Below are positions 54,684 to 56,795 of a DNA stretch of 64,000 bases, one piece after another. The position numbers and the translations under genes were made by a program. Below the pieces are notes generated by a model. That model saw only the letters and a list, made by a program, of their open reading frames with translations, was not told the DNA's origin and ran no database searches. The stretch is from Candidatus Endomicrobium procryptotermitis (GTDB lineage Bacteria > Elusimicrobiota > Endomicrobiia > Endomicrobiales > Endomicrobiaceae), in contig JAITIP010000004.1 of NCBI GenBank assembly GCA_031279415.1, positions 1-64,000 on the forward strand. The letters are read 5' to 3'. Within the stretch, counting starts at the first letter, position 1; each line of letters opens with the position of its first letter.

Positions 54684-54698
54684 AGCCCGTTAAAGCAA

Positions 54699-54720
54699 CA
54701 GCTTATATGTACGTAAGCTG
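54699..54720 (+). terminator. Possible terminator hairpin after thrB
   Basis: CAGCTTA (54699-54705) and TAAGCTG (54714-54720) form a 7-base stem with an 8-base loop, followed by CCAATTTTT. Short stem, weak T-run. Confidence 0.45.
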
Positions 54721-54795
54721 CCAATTTTTGCCAAGACATGCCTAAACAATAAAATTTTCGTTTAAAAATGTTTGAAAAAAAGCAGATTCAAGCTG

Positions 54796-56316
54796 CTAAT
54801 GCGCTGGCTGCTTGTCCATCTTAACTATGCCTTTCTGCACATACACTTTTTCTTGCGTATAATACCAGCTATTAGTAAGTTCCTGCGTTCTATATTTTGA
54901 CAAATCCACTTTTTCTTCTATAGCTCTTTCCACTAAAACATAAAACTCCGAATACTTTTGTGGAATATTATCTATATTATGCGTAAAAAAATATTTCTGC
55001 TCATCTAAAAAGTGTGGAATAATCTCTTCGGCTTTCCAAGTTTTCTCTAAAATTATTACAACTGGAATTTGTGCCTCTTTTAAAAACTCAAATTTTGCAG
55101 CCTTGCCTTTAAAAAGGGCGTCTATTTTATCAGCATTAACTGAATTGAGGCTAAAAGCCAAACATATTGCCGCAATGCCGGCATAAAAAATTTTCTTATT
55201 TTGTATGTTTACTATAAACGCGGCGATAATTATTGAAAAAAGCGGAAAGACAGACATAATGTAACGCACTGTTTTATACGGTGCATACAGTAATACCCCG
55301 AGAAATAAAAAAGCGCAAAGAGAAACAGCCATTTGATTTGGCGAAACAATTATTTTTGTTCCGAGTTTTAAGAAATAAACGCTTATTATAGATAATAAAA
55401 CTATTATGACAGATGTGGAAAAATAATATTCATGCAAAATTTCACAAGTTTTATTAAAAACAAAACCAATATTTGAAAGGAAATTAGCATTGCCGGCTGC
55501 TGCAATCATCTCTTTGCCTCGATATGAAGAAAAGCCTTGAAAATACTGAAGATAAAACAATTTTAAAAAAATTAAAGACAACAGTATAATCCCGAAATAT
55601 ACAATTAAATTTCTGCCTAAATGAAGTTTATAATTGCAGCAAATAAAATATATTAAGAGCAGCGTGACAAATATAATTGAGTAATAGTGGGTAAGCAAAG
55701 TCAATGCAAGAATTAAACTTGCTGCAAAGCAGAATTTAACATCTTTAAAGATATTGCCACTTTTAAACAATAATCTCGGGTTATGCAAAAATCTAAAAAC
55801 ACAGAAAGCAAAAATGATAAAAAATGTTTCTTGCAATTGGTACGGACGGATAAAAATAGTATTTGAAATTGTTCCACTTGAAATAAACGCCAGAAAACAT
55901 GCGGCATAAGACAATGCCTTATTTCTGCCAAATAAAAGCATTGCCAGAAAATAAAACGCTAAAAACGATATTGAAAATAAAATAAGATTTAAAATTGCCG
56001 ACCGGGCAATTATCGTTTTCATATCATATGTTTTAAGTCCTGTAAAAGCAATTCTTAACAAAGAATAATAAAAATTAGTGTGGGGGCTGTCTGTATTTTT
56101 AAGCCATAAGTTTTTTATGTCATTTAAAACGTCTTTTAGCGTATCGTCGTCAAAAAAGCATCTTTCTTTTATTTCTTTTCCAGACATTTCTCTATCTTTT
56201 GGCAGTAACTCATTAATACGAGAGTTATGATTGCAGACTGTAATACTTGCAACTTCATCAACATGCAGAGATTCTTTTTGGCAAAACCAATAGACCCTAA
56301 ACGAAAGCAGTGTCAA
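54796..56316 (-). CDS. Polytopic membrane glycosyltransferase-like protein (GT39/ArnT type), ATG out of frame
   Basis: A 506-codon frame from a TTG at 56316. About ten or more transmembrane helices, a first periplasmic loop with HVDEVAS (the acidic Asp-Glu of GT-C transferases) and a C-terminal soluble part (EKTWKAEEIIPHFLDE). This is the layout of dolichyl/undecaprenyl-phosphate-sugar mannosyl- or arabinosyl-type transferases, which glycosylate lipids or proteins in the periplasm. The TTG cuts into the first helix: the open frame continues upstream through SLIILFIIYL. The only nearby ATG (56407) lies beyond a 7-bp tandem repeat and is one base out of frame with this protein. Two copies instead of three would join them. 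Off-state contingency gene or fresh frameshift. Confidence 0.75.
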   Translation of the reverse strand: MTLLSFRVYWFCQKESLHVDEVASITVCNHNSRINELLPKDREMSGKEIKERCFFDDDTLKDVLNDIKNLWLKNTDSPHTNFYYSLLRIAFTGLKTYDMKTIIARSAILNLILFSISFLAFYFLAMLLFGRNKALSYAACFLAFISSGTISNTIFIRPYQLQETFFIIFAFCVFRFLHNPRLLFKSGNIFKDVKFCFAASLILALTLLTHYYSIIFVTLLLIYFICCNYKLHLGRNLIVYFGIILLSLIFLKLFYLQYFQGFSSYRGKEMIAAAGNANFLSNIGFVFNKTCEILHEYYFSTSVIIVLLSIISVYFLKLGTKIIVSPNQMAVSLCAFLFLGVLLYAPYKTVRYIMSVFPLFSIIIAAFIVNIQNKKIFYAGIAAICLAFSLNSVNADKIDALFKGKAAKFEFLKEAQIPVVIILEKTWKAEEIIPHFLDEQKYFFTHNIDNIPQKYSEFYVLVERAIEEKVDLSKYRTQELTNSWYYTQEKVYVQKGIVKMDKQPAH

Positions 56317-56374
56317 GTAAATTATAAATAATATTATCAGGCTTAAAGTATTGCTTTTAATGAAAGCTTTCTTA

Positions 56375-56397
56375 GGCTGTTGGCTGTTGGCTGTTGG
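56375..56397. repeat. Heptanucleotide tandem repeat, GGCTGTT x3
   Basis: Three exact 7-base units (56375-56381, 56382-56388, 56389-56395) plus GG. On the minus strand they lie inside the first codons after ATG 56407. With three units the frame hits TAA right after the repeat; with two or five it enters the glycosyltransferase frame. Confidence 0.9.
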
Positions 56398-56577
56398 AGA
56401 AAATCATTTTTTATCTATCTCAATTTAATATTAGACGGCTAAAAAACAGGTTGAAATTACATAAGTCGCATAAATCTTATTTTTATTATCATTTTAAAAA
56501 GCTTTTGTCTACCAAAAATATAATGTTATTTTAACTTTGTTACGTCTCCATTTGAAAACATCTTAGAATTTTCCAGC

Positions 56578-56700
56578 TCAACACATCAATGCAACAGTAG
56601 AATTAAAGACCTCCTGTGATGTAAGATAGTTAAAGTATTTCCTTGGTCTGTTGTTAAGCCAAAATTCTACTGCTGGATTAACTTCTTTCTTTTGCTTCGT
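56578..56700 (-). mobile_element. IS30-family transposase remnant (C-terminal end)
   Basis: Minus-strand codons read EVNPAVEFWLNNRPRKYFNY, then LTSQEVFNSTVALMC and a stop (56578-56580). The LNNRPRK...L(T)SQEVF pattern is the end of IS30-type transposases (LN.RPRK.L...TP.EVF). An in-frame stop lies just upstream, and nothing readable precedes it, so only this 3' end survives. No terminal inverted repeat was recognised. Confidence 0.7.
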
Positions 56701-56732
56701 TTAGCATGTTGAACTTGGTAACGGAAAATTTG

Positions 56733-56762
56733 TTGTCTAAACTTAAAAAAGTTTTATATAAT
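56733..56762 (+). promoter_or_regulatory. Promoter for the lysC-to-ilv run
   Basis: TTGTCT (56733-56738), an 18-base spacer and TATAAT (56757-56762), about 30 bases ahead of the lysC ATG and its AAAGGAG ribosome site. Confidence 0.55.
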
Positions 56763-56795
56763 GTTTAAATATTATCTATTTAAAGGAGAAGCGAG

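Follow-up and report, generated by a model that had tools for sequence, protein, structure and literature searches.

The window analysed here (the 64,000-nucleotide stretch of a Candidatus Endomicrobium procryptotermitis contig given above) holds a perfect heptanucleotide array between a start codon and an intact membrane-protein gene, and the number of repeat units determines whether the two are in the same reading frame. We give an even chance to the reading that this is a slipped-strand contingency locus that was captured in a short and OFF state. The same heptamer forms longer and variable arrays ahead of surface-protein genes in related genomes, which suggests that the array in the window is a probable member, now short and slow, of a set of on/off switches.

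The repeat array and the reading frames

The array, the frames and the stop codon are certain. The features of the locus are as follows.

54684 to 56795, no strand: lineage-specific insert between thrB and lysC, from spacer comparison with close relatives
54781 to 54797, minus strand: terminator-like hairpin and T-run over the stop codon of the gene, from a hairpin search
54796 to 56403, minus strand: intact long frame, multi-helix membrane protein, probable GT-C glycosyltransferase, with a homologue in genome G139 and a weak relative in G025
56314 to 56316, minus strand: TTG, first conventional start of the long frame; TM1 cut off and no Shine-Dalgarno
56359 to 56361, minus strand: in-frame ATT, rival non-canonical start; complete TM1 kept
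56372 to 56407, minus strand: short frame MIFSNSQQPTA-TAA, taken with three units from ATG 56407
56375 to 56397, minus strand: heptanucleotide array, AACAGCC x3.3, unique in 387 kb; long arrays of AACAGCC occur in relatives
56588 to 56679, minus strand: remnant of a decayed IS30-type transposase C-terminus upstream of the gene, sequence FWLNNRPRKYFNYLTSQEVFNSTVAL

An earlier sequence-only reading had placed three GGCTGTT units between ATG 56407 and a glycosyltransferase frame, and a perfect array was found there (23 bp, 3.3 copies, 100% match; GGCTGTT on the plus strand, AACAGCC in the sense direction). The minus-strand sequence at this site is ATGATTTTCTCC(AACAGCC)3TAAG. When perfect arrays with a period of at least 7 and at least 3 copies were sought, this one was unique in a 387,365-base genome sample, and five Markov sequences of equal size and the same dinucleotide content contained zero arrays of period at least 7. 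The doublet GGCTGTTGGCTGTT has no other occurrence in the 2.0-Mb genome. As in loci of the neuO type, a perfect tandem array beyond chance expectation is thus found in or just ahead of the 5' coding region.

Translation from ATG 56407 agrees with the claim that the assembled three-unit allele encodes MIFSNSQQPTA and then meets TAA after the repeat. The long frame, shifted by one base relative to the ATG frame, is open from the TGA at 56406 down to the TAG at 54796-54798, and its earliest ATG, GTG or TTG is TTG 56316, which gives 506 aa. For n units the offset between ATG 56407 and the long frame is (n-2) mod 3, so n = 2, 5 or 8 puts the ATG into the long frame whereas n = 3 stops immediately. 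This arithmetic reproduces the claim that one unit fewer (n = 2) or two more (n = 5) would bring the ATG into register with the long frame; by frame analysis, unit number modulo 3 sets full-length versus truncated product, again as in neuO.

Each of the other five frames across the long frame contains 22-43 stops, so the long frame is a real, undecayed coding sequence. Decay elsewhere in the gene had been named as something that would count against a switch, and none was seen: the frame has no second lesion across more than 530 codons and can be aligned along its length to a homologue. This bears on the possibility of a recent, fixed frameshift, in which a 7-bp duplication or the contraction of a longer array locked the gene OFF with decay still to begin. 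The array has only three units, the gene was acquired beside decayed IS sequence, and degraded IS30 copies show that broken genes persist in this genome, all of which would fit such an event. However, the absence of a second lesion argues against it, and AACAGCC is the exact unit that is expanded in relatives, which would be unlikely for a random duplication. A fixed frameshift is considered unlikely.

Start codon of the long frame

TTG 56316 was rejected as the natural start because TM1 is lost and a Shine-Dalgarno is missing. From this codon only 4 residues remain before the sequence SFRVYW and the best 19-residue hydropathy is 0.35, compared to 2.2 for the full N-terminus, in which KKAFIKSNTLSLIILFIIYLTLL ahead of SFRVYW forms a full TM1. 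The expectation that joining the ATG to the long frame would restore a complete TM1 was therefore upheld. A homologue with a full N-terminus had also been called for, and the one in G139 has a fitting length, with 33 residues before its S-x-R motif (SIRLYW) compared to 32 (SFRVYW) when translation starts at ATG 56407 with a two-unit array.

ATG 56407 has a weak Shine-Dalgarno (-2.7 kcal/mol), which was counted against the proposed switch. The corresponding energies are -1.3 kcal/mol for ATT 56361 and +1.8 kcal/mol for TTG 56316, and those of other genes in the window lie between -2.7 and -12.1 kcal/mol, with a pilin-like gene equal to ATG 56407 at -2.7. The sequence-only reading had allowed for a start at a TTG or an ATT; the first does not hold, but ATT 56361 does keep the complete TM1 and has a weak SD-like AAGAAAG upstream. 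The gene might always be ON from a non-canonical start, either ATT 56361 or CTG 56340, with the array as a feature of the 5' leader that is untranslated or encodes MIFSNSQQPTA as a leader peptide. We consider this quite unlikely, given that initiation at ATT and CTG is rare, that the SD energy of the ATT is so small, and that the placement of the array behind an ATG and ahead of the frame, which relatives share, is left unexplained.

The encoded protein

The protein has no match in Pfam, NCBIfam, PHROGs or PDB. One homologue was found among 341 genomes of the phylum, a protein of 547 aa in G139 with 30% identity (E = 1e-30). Its gene comes after a GT2 gene of the polyprenyl-phosphate sugar transferase type, within a polysaccharide cluster that on our reading would also include genes for an NDP-sugar epimerase and a carbamoyltransferase-like protein. 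A profile built from these two sequences, the window protein and its G139 homologue, detected a third, weak relative in an LPS-like cluster of G025. The gathering cut-off of PMT_2 (PF13231) was not reached by either end of this comparison, as the window protein had no match and the G025 relative scored 25.7 bits, just under the Pfam cut-off of 26.1. AlphaFold models (pLDDT 42 and 40) were too poor for a structure search.

The window protein is nevertheless likely to be a GT-C glycosyltransferase, based on an HVDE / HTDE motif after TM1 and the near-cut-off PMT_2 score of the G025 relative. It shares with GT-C / PMT_2 proteins many hydrophobic helices, an HxDE motif after TM1 and a homologue encoded beside GT2 within a polysaccharide cluster, but differs in that its own sequence matches nothing in Pfam, NCBIfam or PDB. 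The label 'GT39-like' that had been given to it is thus pointed to by two distant relatives and not by a direct profile match.

Genomic setting

The gene belongs to an Endomicrobiaceae MAG, where it is flanked by thrB and lysC and lies on the strand opposite to theirs. The thrB-lysC spacer of close relatives is about 180-350 bp (about 180-230 bp in G004, G001 and the complete genome G014), and that of G002 is about 880 bp and holds an unrelated ORF; the lysC contigs of relatives are titled Endomicrobium, Candidatus Endomicrobiellum and Elusimicrobiota. Because thrB and lysC are nearly adjacent in relatives, the gene is a lineage-specific insertion. It is missing from four congeners, and its G+C is 31% compared to 41-42% for its neighbours. 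The IS30 remnant upstream overlaps in sequence with other degraded IS30 pieces elsewhere in the genome, none of which scored above the family cut-off. A second allele or orthologue was not found in Endomicrobium congeners, GTDB species contigs, IMG/VR or plasmids.

Rfam gave no match at the locus, so a riboswitch or another known RNA element was rejected. As a separate observation, the thrB-lysC spacers of G004 and G001 (L115, L116) contain an imperfect palindromic repeat of ACGAATT-like heptamers and their reverse complement, clearest in G004.

AACAGCC arrays in other genomes

The 341 phylum genomes were searched for three AACAGCC units, with the reversed pattern as a control. At least three units were present in only 5 genomes, namely the window genome, G005, G018 and G009 (all Endomicrobiaceae, with G005 and G018 in one genus) and G113 from another family; the control pattern had no occurrence in any of the 341. 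A widespread dispersed repeat was rejected on this count. Arrays were found in 4 of 77 Endomicrobiaceae compared to 1 of 264 other phylum members (Fisher p = 0.01), and those in the three other Endomicrobiaceae have 4-16 units. All 6 Endomicrobiaceae arrays (two in G005, one in G009, two in G018 and the one in the window) are sense-oriented behind an ATG that is open into the array. Where assembled, the genes 3' of the arrays encode an OMP beta-barrel or PMP-type/autotransporter proteins.

The clearest examples are two paralogous leaders in G005 (contig C129; L202 5012-5160 and 6620-6733), each consisting of an RBS, ATG, array, short frame and terminator hairpin. Their arrays are GAGGGAAAAGTATGC(AACAGCC)9, upstream of the OMP beta-barrel gene, and (AACAGCC)4, upstream of a gene for a Chlamydia-PMP-repeat protein that is followed by an autotransporter. 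The flanks of the two leaders agree at 79 of 82 downstream positions and are nearly as alike over 85 bases upstream. That near-identical leaders hold 9 and 4 units shows directly that AACAGCC arrays do gain or lose units. A perfect 14-bp hairpin with a T-run closes each leader (z -5.7 and -4.4), so that, as in pil1, a terminator lies between array and gene. The leader frame of the 9-unit copy terminates 31 nt short of the hairpin, and that of the 4-unit copy runs through it. An attenuator model of this kind was rejected for the window locus because there is no terminator-like site between its array and its gene.

The arrays in G018 and G009 lie at contig ends and have 7-16 units, so unit number varies within the lineage. 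Two arrays of 14 and 16 units stand at two contig ends in G009 (L203 6413-6510 at the end of C48; L204 3-114 at the start of C97). In C48 a GGAGG-ATG is followed by the array that closes the contig, and the array that opens C97 is in frame with a 1,266-codon open frame carrying autotransporter and OmpA domains. These are probably a single locus broken by the array. In G018, ATGAAAATAGCC(AACAGCC)14 lies at the end of contig C55 (L205 1-120), downstream of an N6/N4 DNA methyltransferase gene that points the same way, and the assembly breaks off before the gene behind the array. A second array behind an ATG is likewise at a contig end.

One caveat is that AACAGCC arrays are not always switches. 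The twelve units in G113 (L224 4450-4533) lie between the 3' ends of the convergent genes metG and recG with no gene start beside them, and this array looks non-switching. Viral contigs carry the array very rarely: at least 4 units occur in four of them, close to the 3' end of a long ORF in three cases and at a contig end in the other. The G113 array could point to a dispersed repeat, neutral or acting at the RNA level, whose AACAGCC arrays fall near gene starts by chance, like the TAACTGA heptamers of Beggiatoaceae; TAACTGA heptamers located just 5' of start codons have been proposed as regulator-binding sites (PMC4679880). However, the uniform orientation of all six Endomicrobiaceae arrays behind an ATG, units that are nearly all perfect, as slippage-prone arrays should be, and the very few copies per genome make this explanation improbable. 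Arrays of AACAGCC in Endomicrobiaceae are likely to be phase switches, based on their position, orientation, purity, the copy-number change in the paralogous leaders, and the match to the neuO and pil1 mechanisms.

Proposed switch

The model proposed here is a slipped-strand simple-sequence-repeat contingency locus, neuO-like and acting at translation, in which the AACAGCC units just 3' of ATG 56407 would decide the frame that is read. At 2, 5, 8 or further such numbers of units, the ribosome would go from the ATG into the membrane glycosyltransferase with a complete TM1 (ON), and with the 3 units of the assembled allele it would terminate after 11 codons (OFF). Gain or loss of a unit at replication would switch the gene, which in this model reached its site between thrB and lysC as part of a mobile-element insertion. 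The encoded enzyme would probably alter a surface glycan. Slippage at the locus, use of the ATG, enzyme activity and a surface role of the putative glycosyltransferase are all inferred.

Three units are at the bottom of the range where slippage is seen, and because the array is short, switching at the window locus is expected to be rare. The number is within the neuO range (2-93) but low, so either rare switching or a locked OFF gene is expected. The assembled allele has probably contracted to an OFF state that is nearly stable, and the chances that the three-unit array is still switching are about even. For the family as a whole, we propose, with slightly less than even confidence, that Endomicrobiaceae use the lineage-specific AACAGCC as a hypermutable element in a small surface contingency set with two modes. 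In one the array would set the reading frame at a gene start (the window glycosyltransferase and perhaps the G009 autotransporter), and in the other its length would control leader translation through a terminator (the two G005 leaders, before OMP and PMP-like genes).

Simple-repeat phase variation is known mainly from pathogens, whereas the Endomicrobiaceae include many termite-gut members and their phylum is mostly uncultured. A search of openly accessible literature found nothing linking Endomicrobium with phase variation, tandem repeats or autotransporters, and for Elusimicrobia and phase variation nothing on topic by title. In Endomicrobiaceae the candidate switches precede autotransporters, outer-membrane proteins and one glycan enzyme. 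If the model is true, it would mean stochastic surface variation in gut-symbiosis bacteria, in a phylum without such a report in the literature searched, and would suggest a use of surface switching for symbionts or phage avoidance as well. The recurring heptamer makes switching testable by unit counts in existing metagenome reads.

Comparison with known systems

The TAACTGA heptamers of Beggiatoaceae, Cyanobacteria and Bacteroidetes (PMC4679880) are likewise direct repeats near start codons with a patchy spread. However, there are 169 sets in one genome, mostly intergenic, whereas AACAGCC forms one or two arrays per genome, inside short frames. The pil1/pil3 loci of Streptococcus gallolyticus are a proven attenuator, in which GCAGA repeats lie within a leader peptide that precedes a terminator (PMC3894217). 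They share with the G005 leaders the order of RBS, ATG, array, short frame, terminator hairpin and surface gene, whereas the window locus, which lacks a terminator-like site between array and gene, is a coding-frame case.

The system to which the window locus is compared most directly is neuO, the O-acetyltransferase gene of the CUS-3 prophage in E. coli K1, which has 2-93 copies of AAGACTC 2 nt after its ATG (PMC3046976) and 3-53 repeats in 64 genomes, 3-unit alleles included (PMC13001214). The two differ in that the window unit is AACAGCC, the product is a multi-helix membrane protein rather than an O-acetyltransferase, and the host belongs to another phylum. Also, neuO is ON at n = 0 mod 3 and the window gene would be ON at n = 2 mod 3, and the copy-number series is that of neuO whereas the window locus is known from one assembled allele. 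In both, a perfect heptanucleotide array lies a few bases from the start codon, full-length translation is decided by unit number modulo 3, and three units make one heptapeptide (RLKTQDS in neuO, NSQQPTA in the window). Both also have a surface-glycan enzyme (putative in the window) in a mobile-element setting, and low unit numbers, as neuO alleles with 2-3 units are on record (PMC3046976, PMC13001214). This kind of switch is already known in other bacteria, and the window locus probably adds a candidate member to it.
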